Below, one piece after another: positions 5,010 through 24,108 of a stretch of DNA of 25,263 nucleotides (its first letter is position 1; each line of letters begins with the position of its first letter). Origin of the DNA: a virus; IMG/VR virus record IMGVR_UViG_3300030943_000159, positions 1 to 25,263 of that record; one strand, 5' to 3'. The position numbers were made by a program, and so were the translations under genes. The notes under the pieces were generated by a model. The model saw only the letters and a program-made list of their open reading frames with translations, had not been told where the DNA came from and searched no databases.

Positions 5010-5645
5010 ATGACATACGATGACATCGTCAATACTTCATTAGCTTATGCTGACAGACAGGATGTCGATGTCACAAGTCGTATTGATTTTTTTATGCGAA
5101 TGGTTGAGTCACGTATCAATAGATTATTGGTTATTGAGGACATGAGTATTCGATATACTTTTCCTGAGCCAAACCCTACGGATGGTCGTTACGTTTTACC
5201 TAGCGATTTCAGTGCGCTTCAGGATATCGCCATTGTCAATTTAACTACGCCAACAAGCCGCAATACGTTGTCCCTTGTCAATCCTGAACAAATGAATACG
5301 GCTACAAATACCGTCAATGTGGATAATAGTTTAAAGCATTTTTATAATATATTAGCTAGTAAACTGATTGTTCAGCCTATTGTTATAGATGGCACTAGTT
5401 CATTGGAGATTGTATATTATGGAAATATCGTTCCATTGACGCCTGCCGTACCTACTAATTGGATTTCACTAAACCATCCTGATTTATACATCAACGGGAT
5501 ATTGGTGGAAATAAATTCTTTTGTTAAGGATGCCAATGCCGCATCCTTATGGGACGCTAGATTTAAACAAGTTATTATTGAGCTGGAAGATGCTGATAAC
5601 GTATTAGTATATAGTGGTACCCCGCTCCAGACTAGAATAGGATAA
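5010..5645 (+). CDS. Head-tail adaptor protein, SU10/P22 gp4-like (211 aa)
   Basis: The N-terminal helices (DIVNTSLAYADR, SRIDFFMRMVESRINRLL), the phrase RYVLPSDFSALQDIAIVN, the middle strand LEIVYYGNIVPL, and the C-terminal helices starting at HPDLYINGILVEINSFVKD follow the usual order of phage adaptor proteins. These form the dodecameric ring below the portal and dock the tail nozzle. The length is normal for the family. The gene sits two bases after the preceding stop and six bases before the tailspike gene. The portal itself is not in the window, so it probably lies to the left. Confidence 0.75.
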   Translation: MTYDDIVNTSLAYADRQDVDVTSRIDFFMRMVESRINRLLVIEDMSIRYTFPEPNPTDGRYVLPSDFSALQDIAIVNLTTPTSRNTLSLVNPEQMNTATNTVNVDNSLKHFYNILASKLIVQPIVIDGTSSLEIVYYGNIVPLTPAVPTNWISLNHPDLYINGILVEINSFVKDANAASLWDARFKQVIIELEDADNVLVYSGTPLQTRIG

Positions 5646-5650
5646 ATAAA

Positions 5651-7153
5651 ATGGCTTTAGAAACGGCATCAACTATTGCAGGTCTTGATCCAAACAATCC
5701 AGTTCCTTCTGATCCAGTTGGACAAGGCGATGACCATTTACGATTGATAAAAACCGTATTAAAAGATACGTTTCCAGGAGCGGCCTCCGCAGGTTTTGCT
5801 ATCCCCATCATTGCCACGGAAGCGGAATTAAACTATGTGCATGGTGTCACTAGCAATATACAATCACAATTTAATTTTCTACAAGCGGGGACAGGTGCGG
5901 TCACTAGAACAACCCAAAATAAATTAAGAGATTATGTAAGTGATAAAGACTTTGGTGTCATAGGTGATGGTGTTGCTGATGATACCGCTGCGTTGAATCT
6001 AGCTGGAGCATCGGGTAGAGCGGTATTGCTTACTGGAACTTCTTATAAAATTAATGGTGTGGTAACTGGTAATTTTTATCAATCTACGACTACCGCCTTA
6101 ATCTATACGGGGACTGATAAATTCCATGTATTAGGACTTATACAGCCAACTACTGGACTTTTGTTTTCGGATACTGGAGCGGTTATCAATCGACTAGGCG
6201 ACCGCTTATTTTTGGGCGATGCCAATGTTATGTCAGGCGATTCCACATCAACCGTAAAAACTTGGGCTGGTGCTACCGCTGGAGCTAAACTACAACCTAA
6301 CTATGGTTGGATTGAAAAAAATTCGCTTACTGTTTCTTACGCATCCAAGGGAATTGGTATAGCCGGAGGAACAAGGACATCTCAACTAACAGGAGGAGCC
6401 GCCATTGGCGTTTCTTCAATTGCATACAATGATAATACTGTTAATTCAGTTAATGCATGGGCATTATATCTTGATTCAAAACGCGCTGTGGGTTCATTGG
6501 GAGCGGCTTTTGGAACGGAGATAGAATTAACTGAAATGGGTTCTTATACGGATTTATATTCAGTTGCTACTACTAAAACAATAGGGATATCGCTTTCCGC
6601 AGGTGGAGACCCCGCCGTTAATGGCACTACGGATTCTTGTACCATTGGCTTGCAAATAACGAATAATGGAGCTAATTGGGGGCGTGGTATCGCATTTGGC
6701 AGTAGTTCACTAAGACCGTTTACGGATAGTGAAAGTCTTACTCATTACAAGGCTATTGTTTTAAGAAATGCCATGCAGCTAGGCTGGGAGGATGCCTCAG
6801 GCGGAAGCTGTGGGTTCCTGCGGAGCTCCATAACAACATCGGCTAGTGAAGTATCAATGCTACTAGCAAACAATAACGTCTATGTGAGAGGAGCCACTGG
6901 GTTAAAAATAGCTCAGTTTGGACATGTCGCAAGCGCGGTTAATTATGCTTATATAAGCAACAATGCGACGGGTTTTCCCGTCCAACTGTCAGCTTTAGGC
7001 GACGATGCTAATATTGATATAAGGTTTAATCCAAAGGGAACTGGATATATGCGCTTTGGTACTTTTGGAGCAACCGCCGATGTCGTATGTAATGGTTACA
7101 TTACTATAAAAGACGCGTCAGGAGCCCTTCGTAAACTAATGACAACGGCTTAA
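5651..7153 (+). CDS. Tailspike, N-terminal anchor plus pectate-lyase-like beta-helix (500 aa)
   Basis: Residues 1-75 are a virion-anchor module (LETAS, QGDDHLRL, FPG, ATEAELNYVHGVTSNIQ) that is shared with the receptor-binding protein encoded at 7318. Residues 96-115 (VSDKDFGVIGDGVADDTAAL) are the classic entry to the pectate-lyase superfamily beta-helix of phage tailspikes. The rest is long, Gly/Thr/Ser-rich and beta-rich, as expected for a right-handed beta-helix trimer that binds or cleaves surface polysaccharide. Active-site residues cannot be picked out by eye. AGGA precedes the ATG by about 9 bases. Confidence 0.85.
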   Translation: MALETASTIAGLDPNNPVPSDPVGQGDDHLRLIKTVLKDTFPGAASAGFAIPIIATEAELNYVHGVTSNIQSQFNFLQAGTGAVTRTTQNKLRDYVSDKDFGVIGDGVADDTAALNLAGASGRAVLLTGTSYKINGVVTGNFYQSTTTALIYTGTDKFHVLGLIQPTTGLLFSDTGAVINRLGDRLFLGDANVMSGDSTSTVKTWAGATAGAKLQPNYGWIEKNSLTVSYASKGIGIAGGTRTSQLTGGAAIGVSSIAYNDNTVNSVNAWALYLDSKRAVGSLGAAFGTEIELTEMGSYTDLYSVATTKTIGISLSAGGDPAVNGTTDSCTIGLQITNNGANWGRGIAFGSSSLRPFTDSESLTHYKAIVLRNAMQLGWEDASGGSCGFLRSSITTSASEVSMLLANNNVYVRGATGLKIAQFGHVASAVNYAYISNNATGFPVQLSALGDDANIDIRFNPKGTGYMRFGTFGATADVVCNGYITIKDASGALRKLMTTA

Positions 7154-7327: not shown

Positions 7328-8091
7328 AAACAGCGTCCTTTATTGGTCAATTACAAATAGCGAATCCAACAAGGCAAGACCCAATTAATCAGGGCGATGA
7401 CCATTTAAGGTTGCTTAAATCAGTATTGCAAATTCAATTTCCTGGCATATCCGGCACTGGCTTTGCCAAGGCTATAACGGCTACGGAAGATGAATTAAAC
7501 TATGTTGATGGAGTGACAAGCCCGATACAGCCACAGCTTGATAGACTTAGCAATGCTAATCCCATTGGTATGATTGTCATGTGGTCTGGTACGGTTGTTC
7601 CTACAAACTGGCAGATATGCGATGGTACTAATGGAACACCTGATTTAAGAGGCCGGTTTATTTGGGGCAAAAGTCCATCTAATACGCTTAATTCCATTGG
7701 CGGCACGGCTGATTCAGTTATTGTGCAGCATACGCATACCGCTGGTACCGTTAATACGGTAGCGTTAAACGCGAGTACGGAAAATGACTTACACGCTCAT
7801 ACGTTTATAACGGGTTTAGAGAGTTCGGATCATACGCATACCGTTCCAACTATTATAGGAGGCGGAACTATTCAAGGCGGCGCTGGGTTAGCTCTTGGCA
7901 ATACTACATCTAGCGGAGTTAGCGCATTGCATGCCCATAGCGGAACAACCGATACTGAGAATCAAGCTCATAGTCATACTATAAGTGGAACTGTATCAGC
8001 GGTGACCACAATAGCAAGCACTGGCGTATCCGCTACGAATCAGAATCTGCCACCTTGGTATGTTCTTGCCTACATTATGTTAATGTCTTAA
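7318..8091 (+). CDS. Receptor-binding tail fibre with tail-collar domain (257 aa)
   Basis: Residues 1-75 repeat the anchor module of the tailspike (LETAS, NQGDDHLRLLKSVL, ATEDELNYVDGVTSPIQ). Residues 82-120 (IGMIVMWSGTVVPTNWQICDG, then TPDLRGRFIWG) are a tail-collar domain as in T4 gp12-type short fibres. The remainder carries five HxH motifs (residues 138, 159, 172, 205, 218), which in this family bind metal along the trimer axis. It ends with NLPPWYVLAYIM, the usual C-terminus. AAGGA lies 6 bases before the ATG. It probably binds the host surface as an alternative to the tailspike. Confidence 0.88.
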   Translation: MSLETASFIGQLQIANPTRQDPINQGDDHLRLLKSVLQIQFPGISGTGFAKAITATEDELNYVDGVTSPIQPQLDRLSNANPIGMIVMWSGTVVPTNWQICDGTNGTPDLRGRFIWGKSPSNTLNSIGGTADSVIVQHTHTAGTVNTVALNASTENDLHAHTFITGLESSDHTHTVPTIIGGGTIQGGAGLALGNTTSSGVSALHAHSGTTDTENQAHSHTISGTVSAVTTIASTGVSATNQNLPPWYVLAYIMLMS

Positions 8092-9957: not shown

Positions 9958-10391
9958 GTTTATACAGTTTCCACATGCTAAATCCTATAATGCTAGATTC
10001 CCTTTGGCCTCAATTAATGGTTCATCTAGAACGGGTAATTAAGGTTAGTAACGGGGAGTTTACCGAAGAAACGCTTTATAACCGCGCTATGAGTGGAGGA
10101 TCGGTAATCGTTACGGTTAACATGGGTAGCGATATTATAGCGGTAACTACGATAGAAATAGTGACTTACGATAGCGGTTTAAAGAGTCTTCTTATTCCTA
10201 TATTCGGCGGGGATAAGATGTTTAGTTGGGGAGAAGACTTTATAGTTTTCTTAAAGATGTTAGCTAAACAATTTAATTGCACTGAATTAAGAGGAATGGC
10301 AGTTAGAGACGGATGGATGAGGGCGTTAAAATCAAAAGGATGGATTGAAACGTATTCAGTAATTAAATTGCCTTTGGATGATGAATTATGA
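9954..10391 (+). CDS. GNAT-fold-like phage protein, possible internal virion protein (145 aa)
   Basis: I chose ATG 9954, which overlaps the upstream TGA, rather than an in-frame GTG at 9939. The order of elements (two N-terminal helices, a strand SVIVTVNMGSDIIAVTTIEIV, a central strand SLLIPIFGG, a helix FIVFLKMLAKQFNC, then RGMAVRDGWMRALKSKGW and a terminal strand) matches small GNAT-like proteins of phages, including the T7 gp13 type. The usual acetyl-CoA loop (R/Q-x-x-G-x-G/A) is not evident, so catalysis is doubtful. It lies just before the internal virion genes. Confidence 0.6.
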   Translation: MSLYSFHMLNPIMLDSLWPQLMVHLERVIKVSNGEFTEETLYNRAMSGGSVIVTVNMGSDIIAVTTIEIVTYDSGLKSLLIPIFGGDKMFSWGEDFIVFLKMLAKQFNCTELRGMAVRDGWMRALKSKGWIETYSVIKLPLDDEL

Positions 10392-10903
10392 AAAAAGAAT
10401 TAACCCAACAACGATTATTTGAAGTAGCTCACTATATACCTGAAAAAGGAATTTTTATAAGGCTATTTGGGTGCAAAGGAAGCCGCGCTGGGGATATTAT
10501 GGGTAGTTATACTAAGGCTGGATATATAGAAATTACTATTGATTATGAACGCTATTATGCACATAGATTGGCATTTTTATATATGATAGGAAAGTTTCCA
10601 TCTGGATGCGTAGATCATCTTGATCATAATGGTTGTAATAATTAATGGAAAAATTTACGCGATACGATTGTTATTGGAAATTTACAAAATACCTCATTGA
10701 GGAAAAACAATAAATCTGGATTTAATGGCGTTTGTTTTGATAAGTCTAAAAATAAATGGAAGTCATCAATCCATTTTAACAATAAAGAAATACATTTAGG
10801 CCGTTTTTATAATCTAGCAGATGCTATCAAATGTAGGAAACAAGCCAATATTAAATATGGCTTTCACGAAAACCACGGCTTAAATATAGGAGAGCCATCA
10901 TGA
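10388..10903 (+). pseudogene. HNH/AP2 homing endonuclease interrupted by an in-frame TAA
   Basis: The frame starts at ATG 10388 in an ATGA overlap and encodes an HNH-type N-terminus (AGDIMGSYTKAGY, YYAHRLAFLYMIGKFP, then VDHLDHNGCNN). A TAA at 10643-10645 interrupts it exactly where relatives have the residue before W-x-N-L-R. The same frame then continues WKNLRDT, NLQNTSLRKNNKSGFNGVCFD and KWKSSIHFNNKEIHLGRF, which is an AP2-like DNA-binding domain, to TGA 10901. No frameshift is needed; one stop codon separates the halves. The HNH domain is therefore cut in its core, and the downstream part has no good start (only TTG 10697). Either it is a decayed selfish gene, or the stop is read through. 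Confidence 0.8.
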
Positions 10904-12773: not shown

Positions 12774-13538
12774 TCAGACGAATAACGCTAATTGCAAGGG
12801 CGCATTCTCATATAGCGTAGCGCACCGCGCTTCAAAGTCTTTTCGGCTATATGATGACCTCGCTATGCCGGTTACTTGGTATATTTGTCGTAGCAGAACT
12901 TCCCTGCCATTGCTTTCGGTGAACCATTGATGCTTCTTTTCCTCGCCTTTTCCTTTGCTTATTTCATTGCTGAGTTCTTTGGGGAGCACCACATCGTAAA
13001 TCCAGCGCCTTGTTATCTGAGCGCAGTACGGCGGGGTGCTTTTATTGCCTTTGAATTCGTCGCCATAAAGTCTCATCAATGCTATATAGAACTCATCGGG
13101 AAACAATTTAATCCACTCGCTTGGAGCATCGAGCATGAGTAACTTGCGAATAGCTTCCATGTGCGGAGAAACGACGACAACATTTTGGAGCGCCTGCTCC
13201 ATTCTATGGAACTGGTCATCGAGCGCCAATTTTATGGGTAAGGATTTTTCGGTTGTTCTGGAAAGCATTACTAATAGATTAAATTGTCGTCTGTTTAGTA
13301 AAAAACCCTTAGTTGGACGCCCTGCACCCCGCGTGTTTCCTAATTCTTCGTTTTCGCGCTTAGTTTCAGATAGTCCACGTACAATCTCAAAAGGCATTGT
13401 TCCTCGGCTTAAAAATAAGGATTCTTGTTCCTTTATTAATTGTTTTAAGCTTGAATGGTTGACATACCCAAAAAGTTTGTACAGTTCCAGCGTTGATATT
13501 CTGGCTTCTTTGTTTTGTAAAAATACTAAGTCTTGCAT
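12774..13538 (-). CDS. Rha-like regulator with P63C-type C-terminal domain (254 aa)
   Basis: This is the only reverse-strand gene inside the virion block. The N-terminal half (ARISTLELYKLFGYVNHSSLKQL, then GFLLNRRQFNLLVMLSRTTEKSLPIKLALDDQFHRME) resembles phage Rha / antirepressor DNA-binding domains. Residues 144-240, with KLFPDEFYIALMRLYGDEF, TRRWIYDVVLPKEL, KKHQWFT and a terminal helix, match the P63C domain found in phage and bacterial antirepressor-like proteins. Family knowledge suggests control of lysogeny or late gene expression; the target is unknown. AT-rich DNA at 13546-13630 would hold its promoter. Flanking direct repeats mark it as an insertion. Confidence 0.75.
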   Translation of the reverse strand: MQDLVFLQNKEARISTLELYKLFGYVNHSSLKQLIKEQESLFLSRGTMPFEIVRGLSETKRENEELGNTRGAGRPTKGFLLNRRQFNLLVMLSRTTEKSLPIKLALDDQFHRMEQALQNVVVVSPHMEAIRKLLMLDAPSEWIKLFPDEFYIALMRLYGDEFKGNKSTPPYCAQITRRWIYDVVLPKELSNEISKGKGEEKKHQWFTESNGREVLLRQIYQVTGIARSSYSRKDFEARCATLYENAPLQLALFV

Positions 13539-14911: not shown

Positions 14912-16983
14912 AATCAGTAGATGTTGTTCAATACTTTATGGACAAGGGTTATCAGCCCCATCAGGCGGCAGCTATTGCTGGGAATCTTACTCAAGAGTCT
15001 AGTCTTAATCCTGAAATTATTAATAAAAAATCAGGTGCTTTTGGATTAGCTCAATGGGTAGGCCCCCGTAAAAAAGCTCTGGATGCCTTTGCTCAAAGAC
15101 AAGGTAGTTATGCCACTGACCCAGGAACACAACTAGACTTTATTAATCATGAGTTAAATACTACGGAGAGCCGCGCTAAACAGAAGCTAATGGCAACATC
15201 CAATCTTGAAGACGCTACCAATGCATTTAGTAATCATTTTGAACGCGCAGGTGCTAACGAAAAAAATAATACTCGAAGGGTTTCTCTAGCTCAAAAAGCC
15301 TTGGATTTTATGATACCCACAGCTTCGGCTAGTGAGGATCCTTATAAAGCTTCTCAAGAAGATTTTTCTAAAATGTCAGATGCGGATTTACAAGCCGCTT
15401 TAGGAGATAGCCCCTCACAAGTACCTGTGGATACCGCAGATTACAGTAAAATGTCCGATGCTGAGATTAAAGCCGCTCTTGGGCAACAAACTTCACAAAC
15501 TCAACAACCCGCTTCTACCCAAGAAGATTACACTAAAATGTCTGATGCCCAACTGCAGGCGGCTTTAGGACAACCCACTACACTTGTGGGAAACCCTGTG
15601 CAATCCACTGGGCAAGAAGGCCTTAATAGTCCGGAACCTACAGATTATAGTATAGGTGACATAGGGAAATTCATACTCCCATCTATTGGAAATACGGTAA
15701 TCGGAGCCGCCAGCTCTTTATTGCACCCTTCTGATACGATAAAGGCATTAACGCAAGGTGCTGTAGGCGGGGTTGCCCATTTAACAGGGCAAGAAGACAA
15801 GATAACCCCTGAAGCTATGGAGACAGCAGATTCAATTGGAAAATTCTATAAAGATAGATATGGTTCGTTGCATAATATAGAACAAACCGCTATCACTGAC
15901 CCCGCAGGGTTAGCATTTGATGTCAGTTCCATCGCTGCCCCCATAGGGGCATTAACTAAAGGGCTTTTAAAAGGTACTAGTAAAATAGCCGCCCCTTTAT
16001 TAGGATTAACCACAGGTACAGGTACAGATACAATTGGGCGGGCATATCAAGCGGGGAAAGCGGGTGGCGATGCAGCAGCAGCTTTAAAGGGAAATATGCG
16101 CGGAGCAATCCCTATGTCGGATACTATAAATACGATGAAATCGGCTTTGGGTAATTTAGCGAATGTTAGGGGAAGTAATTATAGATCGGGTATTGGCGAT
16201 ATTTTTCAAGACAAAACCCCTCTAAACTTTCAACCCATTTCCCAAGCCGTACAAGATGCAAATAAGATAGATACGTTTAATGGTGTTTCTATAAATCCAA
16301 AAACTTTAAAGGTACAGGATAAAATAACAAAAGCGGTTGCAGATTGGTCTGAGCAAGACCCCGCACAATTCCATACCATTGAAGGGTTGGACTCATTAAA
16401 AAAATATATTGGAAATATTAAAGATGGAACTAATTTTGGAACGCCTCAACGTGCTGTAGCGAATAGATCATATAATGCGGTACGGGGTGCAATTGAGCAG
16501 CAAGCCCCTGGATATGCCGAAACTATGAAGAATTATGCAGATGCTTCTAAACAATTAACGGAGCTTACCAAGACTTTTTCATTGGGTGAAAAGGCTACAA
16601 CCGATACGGCGTTAAGGAAATTACAGAGCATAGGCCGAAATAATGCCAATACAAACTTTGGGAATAGAACTAAACTTGTTGAGGATATGCAAAATGCGGG
16701 GGCCCCCCAGATGCTCAACAGTATTGCAGGGCAGTCGTTGAGCAGCTGGACGCCTAGGGGACTACAAGCTGCAGGTGCAACGGGATTAGGCGGATTGTCA
16801 CTTTATGGGCATAACCCTTTGTTAGCAGCTTCTTTGTTAAGTACAAGCCCCCGTTTGATGGGCGAGGTTTCTCAGAGCTTGGGAACGTTGGAACGAAAAG
16901 TAACCCCCACGTTAAAAGGCTATGTGGCTAGTGGTATTGCAGGCGCTATACAAGATAGACAAGCCACTAAGAAGAAGAAATAA
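14908..16983 (+). CDS. Virion lysozyme / ejection protein with triple KMSDA repeat (691 aa)
   Basis: Residues 1-135 match the phage tail lysozyme domain: VVQYFMDKGYQPHQAAAIAG, then NLTQESSLNP with Glu30 as likely catalytic acid, GAFGLAQW, and FINHELN. This would cut peptidoglycan for DNA entry. Next come three copies of a 15-residue unit (consensus DYxKMSDAxLQAALG) at about 151-166, 178-192 and 207-221, joined by Gln/Thr/Pro linkers. The rest is long and helical with Gly/Ala hydrophobic stretches (for example 318-365, DPAGLAFDVSSIAAP), typical of ejected pore-forming proteins. The end overlaps the convergent polymerase gene by 17 bases. Confidence 0.8.
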   Translation: MKSVDVVQYFMDKGYQPHQAAAIAGNLTQESSLNPEIINKKSGAFGLAQWVGPRKKALDAFAQRQGSYATDPGTQLDFINHELNTTESRAKQKLMATSNLEDATNAFSNHFERAGANEKNNTRRVSLAQKALDFMIPTASASEDPYKASQEDFSKMSDADLQAALGDSPSQVPVDTADYSKMSDAEIKAALGQQTSQTQQPASTQEDYTKMSDAQLQAALGQPTTLVGNPVQSTGQEGLNSPEPTDYSIGDIGKFILPSIGNTVIGAASSLLHPSDTIKALTQGAVGGVAHLTGQEDKITPEAMETADSIGKFYKDRYGSLHNIEQTAITDPAGLAFDVSSIAAPIGALTKGLLKGTSKIAAPLLGLTTGTGTDTIGRAYQAGKAGGDAAAALKGNMRGAIPMSDTINTMKSALGNLANVRGSNYRSGIGDIFQDKTPLNFQPISQAVQDANKIDTFNGVSINPKTLKVQDKITKAVADWSEQDPAQFHTIEGLDSLKKYIGNIKDGTNFGTPQRAVANRSYNAVRGAIEQQAPGYAETMKNYADASKQLTELTKTFSLGEKATTDTALRKLQSIGRNNANTNFGNRTKLVEDMQNAGAPQMLNSIAGQSLSSWTPRGLQAAGATGLGGLSLYGHNPLLAASLLSTSPRLMGEVSQSLGTLERKVTPTLKGYVASGIAGAIQDRQATKKKK

Positions 16984-18997
16984 ACCCGATCTCCTCAAGT
17001 ATCTTGTAGCAGTTATCAATATACCATTGTTTATCCACATCCTCCGGAAACACTGTGGGTAACTCCTGTAGCGGCCTACATCCTTCCGTTAAGGGGACGT
17101 CATTACCGCTCTTAGCATATATAATTGTTCCAGGACAATCGGTTGACTTATACCAGCGAATTGTCTTACCTAAGAAAATACCATCTTTAAATGCTCCTCC
17201 TTTAACAACTCGCAAGGTTAGGAAGTCCTTTATATCCGTGCAATTAGTGACGGTTTCTTCGATGTCAATAGCATGCGTTAACTTGTTAACCACAGCATTA
17301 ATGCATACCTCATTAACAGGATTCTTTGAGATATCTTTTAATCGATAGGCTCCTTTCAACTTAACGCTATTATTTTCTTTAATAGCGATATAGTTATTAA
17401 TATCCCTTGAATAGATTGCTTTATAAATAGTTTCTTCTGTCTCAAAGTTAGTTATTGTTTCCCAATGATGTACAATAGCATTTAACTTAGGTTCGTTTAG
17501 CTTGTTAGTGTAAATAACAATTCCATCAGTATTCCCTGATACAACTTCTATTCCAGCAAGCTCCAGCATTTCAATAAGCATAAGTAAGGCAAGCTGACCC
17601 GTTAATGTAATCTGAATGACTAACTGAGGTGAGTATAAGGATGAGTATTGATTGCCCATTTTTCCAAAGGAACTATTAATAATAATTTTCTGGCAATCCG
17701 CCGTAACTTTATCCCCCGTATGTTTAGCTTTAATCCGTTCATCTACAATCAGTCCATAGACTTTTAGAAAGTCCGTACCCATCGATTTAGGTGCCAACTT
17801 TTGATTGAGTATAATCATGGGATAATAAGACGTCACATCTCGATCCCGAATAATCATAGAGTCCGTTTCAATATACCCTTGACTTTTTTCCTTGGAATGC
17901 AGACCACCAATTCCCAGTTGATAGGTGCTATTATTGATAACAATGTTAAGGCTTGATAATGCCGGTGGTAAACTTATGCGACCGTTCTCAGCAACAACGA
18001 ATGGACTATCTTTAACCACGCTTAACACCGTGGACATTAAGGAAGTTTGATACTTTAGGAAGGAGGGAACCTTGTATTTATAAACCCTACCTACTTCTAC
18101 TGGTTCCTTGCCTATTCTATACCCTTTGCGCTTTTCAACCGCGTCACGTATAACGATTTCCGCAATTTGCGCGTCACTACGCGACCTTAAATCCATTCTG
18201 TACCGCTTACTCATAGCGCAGCGTAAATCTAACTGTGGGCTTATAGCATGCGTTAATAGCACCGTATCCAATAAATCGTTCATGCAGTAATGGCGAGTAA
18301 TTAACTTCTGCTCATAGGTGAGTTCATTATCAGGAGGAAAAGGAAGGTCTTGTAGTTTTGGGGCGTGGATACGTCCGCTATAAACTTTTAGGGATCCGTC
18401 CAGAGGGAGGACGTTAATGACATCCACGCTATTAACATTAAAAGGAATGATTTTAAATTCATGATAAATGTCATTAGGTCTAAAGTTTTGCAAGATGATT
18501 AAATCACTGGCTTTCTTAAAAGTAGTAGGATTGGCATGGTGCGGGTAACAAGCTAAAGTGGCTAAAGGAATATCATAGTTATTAGAGTTAAATCCAATAA
18601 GCTGAAAGTTTTCCATAACCCACTTTAATTTAGCACTATCCAATACCTCGTTGTCCAGTATTTCAAATAATAAGCATTTGCCGGAATTGGGTTCACTGAA
18701 GGCAATAAGAAAATAGTTTTTATAGCACTCAATATCAAAATATAAGGGGGTTCCCACAGTGGCAACCAGTTCACTATCCGTGAATTGATTATACCGTGCG
18801 GCTAGTGCCGACTCTAAACCTGGCAAGTAGTCCTCCCGTTCCCAAATCGGTTCGGGTGGACGTTTAATGCCGTTTTTTTTAAACTGGGGCGGTGTAGACT
18901 CTTCCCACCAAAATAAATCTAGGTTGTAGGATGTGGATTTCATGAAATTAATATCGCTCTTTTGCCATATAAAGTACGGTGGTTGAATCCTGTCCAC
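16967..18997 (-). CDS. Family B DNA polymerase with 3'-5' exonuclease (676 aa)
   Basis: All expected motifs are present in order: Exo I FDIE (Asp88, Glu90), Exo II GFNSNNYDIP (Asp142), Exo III YCMND (Tyr237, Asp241), the GIGGLHS loop (about 362-367), motif A DVTSYYP (Asp387), motif B KIIINSSFG (Lys437, Asn441, Gly445), and motif C NTDG (Asp491), where the first Asp of the usual DTD is Asn. It is compact, as in phage replicases. The start is uncertain: GTG 18997 gives the length stated, but its AAGG is too close; ATG 18943 would give 658 residues and also lacks a strong ribosome site. It would replicate the phage genome together with the SSB-like proteins encoded upstream. Confidence 0.93.
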   Translation of the reverse strand: MDRIQPPYFIWQKSDINFMKSTSYNLDLFWWEESTPPQFKKNGIKRPPEPIWEREDYLPGLESALAARYNQFTDSELVATVGTPLYFDIECYKNYFLIAFSEPNSGKCLLFEILDNEVLDSAKLKWVMENFQLIGFNSNNYDIPLATLACYPHHANPTTFKKASDLIILQNFRPNDIYHEFKIIPFNVNSVDVINVLPLDGSLKVYSGRIHAPKLQDLPFPPDNELTYEQKLITRHYCMNDLLDTVLLTHAISPQLDLRCAMSKRYRMDLRSRSDAQIAEIVIRDAVEKRKGYRIGKEPVEVGRVYKYKVPSFLKYQTSLMSTVLSVVKDSPFVVAENGRISLPPALSSLNIVINNSTYQLGIGGLHSKEKSQGYIETDSMIIRDRDVTSYYPMIILNQKLAPKSMGTDFLKVYGLIVDERIKAKHTGDKVTADCQKIIINSSFGKMGNQYSSLYSPQLVIQITLTGQLALLMLIEMLELAGIEVVSGNTDGIVIYTNKLNEPKLNAIVHHWETITNFETEETIYKAIYSRDINNYIAIKENNSVKLKGAYRLKDISKNPVNEVCINAVVNKLTHAIDIEETVTNCTDIKDFLTLRVVKGGAFKDGIFLGKTIRWYKSTDCPGTIIYAKSGNDVPLTEGCRPLQELPTVFPEDVDKQWYIDNCYKILEEIGFISSS

Positions 18998-19027: not shown

Positions 19028-19717
19028 TTATTGTAGGTTCACCAGTTTATGAATTTGCAGGCAGAGTTTATATCCATGTTTAATACAACTATTAACCACG
19101 GCTTGCTGGGCCATGTTATTCAAAAAACGTACCCCCATGTCAATCGGTTGTAGGTATGTATTGGAGTCTTTGGAACATCTATATAAACCAATAGTTAGAT
19201 TATCGCCAAGCTGAGTATTTGGCAATCCATCGCTAGAATCCAAGTTAGTGTGGGTACCTACATATTTATAAGCATCAATATATGGAATCATTTGTCGATT
19301 TAATGTAGGGGTCTTAGGACTGCATACAATAGTTAACAAATAATGGTCATAAGGTAGCTTTTGATATAACGTTCCATTAGTTTCAATTTGAACTCGAAAG
19401 TTATGGATTAAAAGAGAAGAAACGAGATGACTTAATGCCTGTTGGCGGAAAGGCTCCCCCCCTGTAATAACAACAAGAGAATTTTTACCGTGATTAACAA
19501 TATTCTTAATATGCTCTACTAATTTAGGGACTGTTTGACCATAACGCCCAGTGGTATAATCAGTGTCACAATTTTTACATTGCAAATTACATCCAGCTAA
19601 ACGGATAAATATGGCTCGTTCCCCCGTGAAAGGACCTTCCCCTTGTAGGGTTAAGAAGATGGAATGTACGTCGATGGTTTCTTCTTCTACTTTGTGTTCC
19701 GAGGGTTGTAAATTCAT
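19028..19717 (-). CDS. queE: 7-carboxy-7-deazaguanine synthase QueE, radical SAM (229 aa)
   Basis: QueE makes 7-carboxy-7-deazaguanine from 6-carboxytetrahydropterin, the ring-contracting step towards preQ0 and queuosine. The signature FLTLQGEGPFTGERAIFIRLAGC, the CX3CX2C cluster (Cys43, Cys47, Cys50), the TGGEP motif, CSPK, and the ending QPIDM...LQIHKLVNL all match. I use ATG 19717 because GGAG is 6 bases upstream; a TTG at 19729 is the only earlier in-frame start. In phages this enzyme serves DNA deazaguanine modification or host interference. No QueC, QueD, FolE or DpdA gene lies in the window, so partners would be elsewhere or supplied by the host. Confidence 0.92.
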   Translation of the reverse strand: MNLQPSEHKVEEETIDVHSIFLTLQGEGPFTGERAIFIRLAGCNLQCKNCDTDYTTGRYGQTVPKLVEHIKNIVNHGKNSLVVITGGEPFRQQALSHLVSSLLIHNFRVQIETNGTLYQKLPYDHYLLTIVCSPKTPTLNRQMIPYIDAYKYVGTHTNLDSSDGLPNTQLGDNLTIGLYRCSKDSNTYLQPIDMGVRFLNNMAQQAVVNSCIKHGYKLCLQIHKLVNLQ

Positions 19718-19731
19718 TTGAAACTCCAAGT

Positions 19732-22152: not shown

Positions 22153-22180
22153 GAAAAAAAGGGATGACATTAACCATCCC
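22153..22180 (-). terminator. Rho-independent terminator upstream of the helix-turn-helix gene
   Basis: On the reverse strand GGGATG/CATCCC (22175-22180 and 22161-22166) closes an 8-base loop and is followed by seven T (22154-22160). It ends transcripts coming from the repeat-protein side. Confidence 0.75.
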
Positions 22181-22253: not shown

Positions 22254-22391
22254 TCATAAACAACCATCAAACGTCCATATAAGTATTTTAATAATCAATC
22301 CCCAGATAATTACACCGGATATCATAAGAACCGTGATACCAATTAATGGCGCTATTTTTATATATATTGACTCTTTCATTTTATTTCTCAT
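22254..22391 (-). CDS. Small membrane protein (45 aa)
   Basis: The start ATG overlaps the stop of the repeat-protein gene (ATGA type). A basic N-terminus (MRNKMKESIYIK) is followed by a long hydrophobic stretch from about residue 12 to 40 (LIGITVLMISGVIIWGLIIKILIW), one or at most two membrane passes, with the positive end probably cytoplasmic. A second ATG at 22379 is an alternative start. It could act with the repeat protein it is coupled to. Function unknown. Confidence 0.6.
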   Translation of the reverse strand: MRNKMKESIYIKIAPLIGITVLMISGVIIWGLIIKILIWTFDGCL

Positions 22392-22960
22392 TTTAATAAT
22401 TTTGTAATATCTTCCGGCACGTTTGATACGATATTGGCAATCCATTCCGGCCTATTATCAACTACCCAATCCAGTCTATTACTCATCATCCATGCTGGCC
22501 TATTATCGGCCATCCAATTCGTGTGATTATTAGCCATCCATGAGGGCCTATTATCAGCCATCCAATCTAATCGATTAGCCATCATCCATTTATTGCGATT
22601 GTATGACATCCATTCCGGCAGGGCGTAGGCCATCCATTCAGGGTAATTATCCGCTAGCCATATCTTTTTATTATCAACTAGCCAAAATTTATAATTATCG
22701 GTCATCCATTCCCGTCTATTATCCATCATCCATTCAACTCTATTAATAGCCATCCATGTTGGATAATTATCGCCCATGTATTTTGGCCTATACATAGCCA
22801 TAATTTCGGGCTTATTCTCAGACATCCAAAATTGCTTATTATTAACCATCCATAGAGGCTCATTCACAACCCCCCATTCCGGTCTATTATCCCCAACCCA
22901 TTTGGGGTTATTTAGGAAAATAATACATAATTGCTCATGTGTTAAATCTTCTACTTTCAT
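22388..22960 (-). CDS. Octapeptide Asn/Trp tandem-repeat protein (190 aa), unknown
   Basis: After a 15-residue start (MKVEDLTHEQLCIIF), residues 16-175 divide exactly into twenty eight-residue repeats with no gap, then a 15-residue end (NIVSNVPEDITKLLK). The consensus is [D/x]-N-R-P-E-W-M-[A/x]: Asn at position 2 in 18 of 20 units, an aromatic at position 6 in 19 (18 Trp, one Tyr), Met or another hydrophobic at 7, Pro at 4 in 11. The Trp ladder suggests a regular solenoid with stacked side chains. There is no signal peptide or membrane segment. The gene starts one base after a lipoprotein gene and overlaps a membrane micro-gene. I know no functional family to assign. Confidence 0.85.
   Translation of the reverse strand: MKVEDLTHEQLCIIFLNNPKWVGDNRPEWGVVNEPLWMVNNKQFWMSENKPEIMAMYRPKYMGDNYPTWMAINRVEWMMDNRREWMTDNYKFWLVDNKKIWLADNYPEWMAYALPEWMSYNRNKWMMANRLDWMADNRPSWMANNHTNWMADNRPAWMMSNRLDWVVDNRPEWIANIVSNVPEDITKLLK
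22436..22915 (-). repeat. Twenty tandem 24-bp coding repeats
   Basis: This 480-base stretch is exactly 20 x 24 bases, in frame with the repeat protein. On the + strand the units read roughly as a CATCCA word followed by a Y/R-mixed part and TTATC, with strong third-position drift. The units are therefore old or kept by protein-level selection rather than recently amplified. Confidence 0.85.
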
Positions 22961-23237: not shown

Positions 23238-23265
23238 ATTATAATTACTTTTAAAAACTTTGCAA
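23238..23265 (-). promoter_or_regulatory. Sigma-70-type promoter before the lipoprotein gene
   Basis: On the reverse strand TTGCAA (23260-23265) and a perfect TATAAT (23238-23243) are separated by 16 bases in AT-rich DNA. The start site would lie near 23231, about 30 bases before the lipoprotein ATG, so it should drive the lipoprotein, repeat protein and membrane micro-gene up to the terminator at 22153. Confidence 0.65.
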
Positions 23266-23283: not shown

Positions 23284-24108
23284 TTATCTTTTATATACAT
23301 CAATTCCACATCCCTCATGAATAGCCTTAGCTAAGTAGTTCCAACCTTGCTCTTTAGGGATACCTATTTCACCTTCCATACCTAATCGATTACCCGCTAC
23401 ATAGCCAGGCGTTCGGTTTAAACCTAGTACACGCCCCCTGTTTTCACTGATACCTATTTTGATATTATTGGATTCAGTGATAATTAAAGGTTCATGGAGG
23501 AAGAAAAGACCATCGCACCACTGGCTAATAAGCTCGCGCTTACCATAGGTTTTGAAGTTCTTTGGGCTATGCAGTAACAAGTCCCAGCTTGAATATTCAC
23601 CCGCTTGTGGGTCTAATATGACGTTAGCAAAGACATGGCAGGTTAGAACTACATTTATTTTATGAGTTAAGGCGAGGACATCTAGCATATAAAGAATATC
23701 CATAAAGCGTTCATTAGCCACATCATATCCCTTTCCATAACCGCCCAGGCATGAGTTCATCGTCAACCCTTTATTAGCCCCATTTCGATAGGAAGGGTCA
23801 GACATTAATACGCTTTCATGGATAAGCCTCTCAAGTGCAGTTGCAGAGTCGATAACCACAGTGTTGAAAGGGAAGCTACCCGTCTCGCAAGCTGTGGATA
23901 CCTCATCCAGCAATCCCATGAAATCGCTATAACGTGTGATTAACGGCACGTGTTGAACTTCTACGCCCGCATAACCTGCTTCTAAAGGTATCAGCAAAGC
24001 GTTGGGTGCATTACACGCCAGGGTAGTCTTACCGACTTTTTCCACACCAGCAACAACAAGGCGTAAACCCGCATAGTTTTCTTTTGAGTTTTTAATTTGT
24101 TCTAGCAT
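23284..24108 (-). CDS. Sak4-like RecA-fold ATPase (274 aa)
   Basis: Walker A is GVEKVGKT (residues 21-28, Lys27) and Walker B TVVIDS (Asp87), in a protein of the size and layout of phage Sak4 / AAA_24 ATPases. These have a reduced RecA core and promote single-strand annealing with the partner SSB. Further typical pieces are LGGYGKGYDVANERF, INVVLTCHVFAN (a sensor-like strand) and WCDGLFFLHEP. Two SSB-like genes lie downstream on the same strand, which fits known Sak4-SSB pairings. It starts one base after the preceding gene's stop. Confidence 0.8.
   Translation of the reverse strand: MLEQIKNSKENYAGLRLVVAGVEKVGKTTLACNAPNALLIPLEAGYAGVEVQHVPLITRYSDFMGLLDEVSTACETGSFPFNTVVIDSATALERLIHESVLMSDPSYRNGANKGLTMNSCLGGYGKGYDVANERFMDILYMLDVLALTHKINVVLTCHVFANVILDPQAGEYSSWDLLLHSPKNFKTYGKRELISQWCDGLFFLHEPLIITESNNIKIGISENRGRVLGLNRTPGYVAGNRLGMEGEIGIPKEQGWNYLAKAIHEGCGIDVYKR

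Follow-up and report, generated by a model that had tools for sequence, protein, structure and literature searches.

A family of viral octad-repeat proteins predicted to fold as an alpha-helical screw

A gene on the minus strand of the window (the whole 25,263-nucleotide stretch of viral DNA analysed here) encodes a protein built on twenty eight-residue repeats in exact register, and this repeat defines a protein family that evolves under purifying constraint. Its fold is moderately supported and its function is a guess. Taken as a whole, our best explanation, to which we give about an even chance, is that the protein forms a tandem-repeat rod specific to phages, wound as an alpha-helical screw, that binds a host or defence protein. 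If this is true, phages have a hitherto unrecorded family of minimal alpha solenoids, in which every eight residues supply a single very short helix. Its members would exemplify in nature an architecture described not long ago for random repeat sequences.

The octad gene and its repeat array

The array comprises exactly 20 units without insertion or deletion (Table 1). Our recount agrees with the preliminary description, which had Asn at position 2 and Trp at position 6 in 18 of 20 units each, followed by a hydrophobic residue: position 7 is Met, Leu, Ile or Val in 19 of 20, and Pro stands at position 4 in 11 of 20. Amino-acid autocorrelation is 0.37, 0.32, 0.30 and 0.36 at lags 8, 16, 24 and 32, against 0.01–0.07 elsewhere; a 16- or 24-residue superperiod was sought in the octad members and not found.

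At the DNA level all 20 units are distinct, with a mean pairwise identity of 56%. Comparison of the units with one another gives a pS of 0.61 and a pN of 0.41, and the dN/dS of ~0.45 indicates that protein change is constrained, as expected from the earlier proposal that selection acts on the protein. The between-unit ratio is below 1 in every octad member where it could be computed.

Table 1. Features of the octad locus in the window
Feature	Position	Strand	Remarks
Octad-repeat protein	22388..22960	-	190 aa; ORF, with homologues in contigs of uncultured viruses
Twenty 8-residue units, residues 16-175	22436..22915	-	consensus D-N-R-P-E-W-M-A
N-terminal cap, residues 1-15, MKVEDLTHEQLCIIF	22916..22960	-	M1, L6, Q10 conserved (family alignment); helix 8-17 in AF2 model
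C-terminal cap, residues 176-190, NIVSNVPEDITKLLK	22391..22435	-	family alignment; helix 183-189 in AF2 model
Small probable lipoprotein, 78 aa	22962..23198	-	immediately upstream of octad gene; 88% identical in sister phage
Small single-span membrane protein, 45 aa	22254..22391	-	its ATG overlaps octad stop as ATGA
Sigma-70-like promoter, TTGCAA-16-TATAAT	23238..23265	-	score 10/12; region's promoter-like site count not above shuffles
Terminator-like hairpin GGGATGGTTAATGTCATCCC, then T7	22161..22180	-	downstream of the three-gene unit
Sak4-like AAA recombination ATPase	23284..24108	-	conserved flank of accessory island; AAA_24 and phrog_124

Homologues in viral contigs

Homologues were sought by scanning viral contigs for period-8 DNA patterns and then scoring octads in all frames; most of the DNA-pattern matches were other frames of low-complexity repeats and were discarded. 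About a dozen contigs of uncultured viruses carry members of the family, which have 3 to 30 repeats, and some genomes carry two copies. Loss of register in homologues had been named at the outset as a possible refutation; in the nine core members the register is kept, all Trp–Trp spacings being multiples of 8. The consensus across 174 octad units is [DE]-[NH]-R-P-[ED]-W-M-A, and the ends are conserved as well, the proteins starting with MKxxxLTxEQLxxIAE and ending with [IV]PEDIxxLLK.

Two octad genes, of 17 and about 20 units, stand in tandem with an ATGA overlap in a sister phage (L155/L146), and the L132 contig also has two gene copies. A 30-unit gene (L127+L194) spans the ends of a 46.7-kb contig, a sign that this genome may be circular. 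Further homologues are found at L160, L140, L177 and L293, and more divergent members at L157/L176, L171/L292, L166 and L186. The 375-kb contig of L177 has a frameshifted copy (L273 1403–1599, minus strand), which adjoins an apparent IS607-like serine recombinase, and, elsewhere, an intact short octad gene (L262 1483–1668). An identical octad gene is present in two other IMG/VR contigs, whose overlaps with the window are >99.9% identical in DNA, so both contigs sample the same virus population as the window. The octad protein evolves faster than its neighbours: between the sister phages it is 47% identical, as compared with 71% identity in Sak4 and 88% in the lipoprotein.

Searches of Pfam, NCBIfam, PHROGs, PADLOC and the PDB sequences with octad members gave no match, the PADLOC profiles covering known defence and anti-defence families. 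Among 50,697 phage records the only match of the octads was one of composition, to the repeats of BMP-1/BPP-1. The octad motif was found in none of the papers searched, and neither HeliScrew nor ALTTAQ is named in the matches listed. Weak matches of the window protein to phrog_3201 and DHX15 were discarded as chance or composition, as was its match to BMP-1 VR2. In cellular genomes (contigs of 84,980 species by pattern scan, and about 770 genomes by profile search) we obtained only antisense or low-complexity matches, lying antisense to ALTTAQ or to other simple repeats; on this basis the family looks viral, within the limits of the patterns used. The octads illustrate how short repeats in perfect register, hidden in viral dark matter, can go unmatched in all current family libraries.

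Operon and genomic neighbourhood

The unit in the window runs from the promoter-like site through the genes for the probable lipoprotein, the octad protein and the membrane micro-protein to the terminator-like hairpin, and the three genes are near-contiguous or overlapping. The co-expression behind a clear promoter that had been put forward is plausible from the promoter score and the near or true gene overlaps, but promoter-like sites are no more numerous in the region than in shuffled sequences. The proposed lipoprotein partner holds in part: the gene is present upstream, but its lipobox is atypical (LTTGC), and such a neighbour occurs in only three of the examined neighbourhoods (the window, L155 and L293). 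At the other loci checked a regular expression found none beside the octad gene; the same expression fails to pick up the lipoprotein of the window as well.

This accessory unit is inserted between the Sak4 and DUF669 genes, a place where MiCath and Kharn, both isolate relatives, lack such an insert. In the sister phage the island contains this lipoprotein gene together with the two octad genes and an anti-restriction gene of the Lar family (PF14354, 32.3 bits; cut-off 28.6). Octad genes lie in replication or nucleotide regions at L160, L127, L132 and L157, and that of L290 adjoins an M15-like peptidase and structural genes; across the family the neighbours are not conserved.

Some other genes in these contigs are recorded here for their own sake. 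Directly 3' of the L293 octad gene, with lipoprotein genes flanking, a 74-aa ORF (7734–7958, plus strand) resembles a lone response-regulator receiver domain. Downstream of an octad gene in L132 is an HNH endonuclease that seems to bear a signal peptide (5310–5732, minus strand); a secreted nuclease is unusual for a phage. Within the window, a QueE-like radical SAM protein (19028–19729, minus strand; phrog_2076) suggests 7-deazaguanine metabolism or DNA modification, and the adjoining DNA polymerase (16967–18997) is closest to those of Pseudomonas phage JG054 and the CAjan group, at 46–48% identity. An anti-repressor/Rha-like ORF (12774–13538, minus strand) lies within the plus-strand structural gene cluster, and two neighbouring short ORFs between structural genes (10388–10903, plus strand) resemble a homing endonuclease that has been split into an HNH half and an AP2 half.

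Predicted fold

AF2 models were built from a shallow family alignment of eight rows for two members that are about 50% identical to each other: the window protein (mean pLDDT 84, pTM 0.62; pLDDT 84–68 over the five models) and an octad copy of the sister phage (mean pLDDT 81, pTM 0.58; 81–55). In both, DSSP assigns to octad after octad a seven-residue helix, PEWMADN, and one break residue, normally Arg, and the helical array is flanked by the caps LTxEQLxxI and IPEDIxxLL. This 7+1 pattern, predicted in two members, is in line with the regular solenoid that had been anticipated. For perfect repeat sequences AF2 is known to predict regular solenoids too readily (PMC11795689), and helical moments calculated for the octad directly from its sequence are not significant. 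Foldseek found no significant match of the octad models in the PDB or BFVD, the PDB library being one from which 9zem may be absent.

We consider that the fold is probably a tight alpha-helical screw with one short helix per octad. The helix of each octad would have Pro at N1 and Glu at N2, the Trp and Met would enter the packing core, and a single residue, mostly Arg, would break the helix before the next octad. Since the helix would be broken once per octad, we propose that the chain winds into a tight screw, which the N-terminal and C-terminal caps would close. The octad members are small and soluble-looking, so that the fold and the host target can be tested directly.

Proposed function and alternatives

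The preliminary description had suggested that the surface of the rod might mimic or bind something such as DNA, peptidoglycan or a host protein. We propose that the octad rod is an accessory, early, non-virion product, which along its length would bind a protein of the host or of a defence system and so serve as a host-takeover or anti-defence factor. This role is the likeliest that we can name, yet a tentative one; it is suggested by the accessory, early-region position of the gene beside Sak4, by the Lar gene in the sister island, by gene duplication and by the variable number of repeats. A bolder version, which we think rather doubtful, is that the octads form a natural fold class confined to phages: an 8-residue screw with a Trp/Asn core, separate from ALTTAQ, that adjusts its length and surface as units are gained and lost and genes are duplicated, and that disarms a defence protein of the host. 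Phages would then be putting to biological use a super-secondary structure described so far from random repeat sequences.

Two other functions, both unlikely, would draw on the neighbouring genes. The protein might be a DNA mimic or anti-restriction rod of the kind seen in pentapeptide-repeat proteins or Ocr/ArdA, with an acidic stripe at positions 1 and 5 imitating DNA. Asp or Glu is found at these positions in about half of the units, with a basic residue at position 3, and the Lar-family gene adjoins the octad genes in the sister phage; but the acidic stripes are interleaved with Arg, and mimicry is disfavoured because net charge, merely −3 in the window protein, spans −14 to +1 among the homologues and because the octad protein has no obvious export signal. 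The lack of an obvious signal peptide speaks against envelope-associated superinfection exclusion, in which the octad protein would act with the adjacent lipoprotein and membrane micro-protein and its Trp ladder would contact glycan or peptidoglycan. The arrangement of the three genes as one operon in the window agrees with such a role, as does the lipoprotein gene that precedes the octad genes in L155 and L293 too, but at the other loci checked the expression used found no such neighbour.

Less probable again is an ordinary low-complexity expansion without a defined fold. Slippage generates repeat arrays, and the L127 units are 85% alike in DNA; those of the window and L132 are only 54–56% alike, yet register and core residues are kept, protein change is constrained and the end caps are conserved. 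A virion or tail component, with the repeats as a rod of variable length, would suit the rod shape and a weak PHROG tail-fibre score (E 0.027), a match that is at chance level; the early or replication region holds the gene in the window, L155, L160, L132, L127 and L157, and the structural genes of the window are on the opposite strand, which makes this reading very doubtful. Least credible to us is a modular reader of nucleic acid or another polymer, which by analogy with PUF, PPR and TALE proteins would match one octad to each monomer and use positions 1, 3 and 5 as a code. Positions 2, 4, 6 and 7 are indeed conserved as a core while 1, 3 and 5 vary, and repeat number ranges from 3 to 30, but the protein is acidic overall, and the most regular members are nearly uniform at positions 1, 3 and 5, leaving little code to read.

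Comparison with known short-repeat systems

Like the octad protein, the pentapeptide-repeat proteins Qnr and MfpA are short-period solenoid rods, but they are beta solenoids with a period of 5 residues; the octad protein has an 8-residue period and a predicted alpha structure, no Pfam match, and neither of the two features that mark the pentapeptide-repeat DNA mimics. The VR2 repeats of the Bordetella phages BMP-1 and BPP-1 (AY526908) share with the octads a 24-nt, or 8-residue, unit in a phage (tblastn E 3e-6), but they are Gly/Thr/Ala repeats without Trp, and the match, at 16% identity, is driven by composition.

The preliminary description could place the octads in no standard described repeat class. 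This stands for sequence, where no family matched, but not quite for kind, given ALTTAQ (PF20080) and the crystallised HeliScrew4. Yang et al. 2025 (PMC12822642) report an alpha-helical screw from random repeats, and from its name and repeat we take HeliScrew4 (PDB 9zem) to be that structure. Its units, LTPEQIAA, in general form L[TS]PE[QK][IVF]AA, resemble the octads in their length of 8 residues, in having Pro-Glu after the break residue and in having Ala after the core hydrophobic, and they may align in phase with N-R-P-E-W-M-A-D. In three separate octad members the best of the 8 phases sets DNRPEWMA on ALSPEQIA, which is also the phase of the AF2 helix; the fraction of null comparisons at least as good is 0.05–0.17, and the agreement is only suggestive. 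The octad caps, PEDIxxLL at the C-terminus and LTxEQLxx at the N-terminus, also resemble HeliScrew units. A HeliScrew-type 8-residue period without indels is seen in the Trp spacings of nine octad members, and one short helix per octad in the AF2 DSSP of two, as a prediction only. Unlike the octads, HeliScrew4 is a designed or random sequence, with a core of Leu, Ile and Ala in place of Trp, Met and Asn, and with Ser or Thr rather than Arg as the break residue.

ALTTAQ likewise has an 8-residue period, with the unit LTTTQ[ILV]xx, in which LTxxQ resembles the octad N-terminal cap, but it forms long arrays in proteins of >800 residues encoded in bacterial genomes and lacks the Pro/Trp core. With an E limit of 1, neither the window protein nor ten homologues matched the PF20080 profile, on which true ALTTAQ proteins score 328–509 bits, and hhalign of the octad profile against ALTTAQ detected no similarity (probability 0.2%, E 0.36). 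Judged by these profiles, the octads appear to be a sequence family independent of ALTTAQ, with a resemblance in kind and no detected descent from it. ALTTAQ proteins that we reached through the false cellular matches (bacterial proteins L300, L302 and L303) do match HeliScrew4 in sequence, and ALTTAQ may on that ground itself be an alpha-helical screw that occurs in nature. Of the known kinds, the 8-residue alpha-helical screw of ALTTAQ and HeliScrew4 comes nearest to the octads, which would work like that class.
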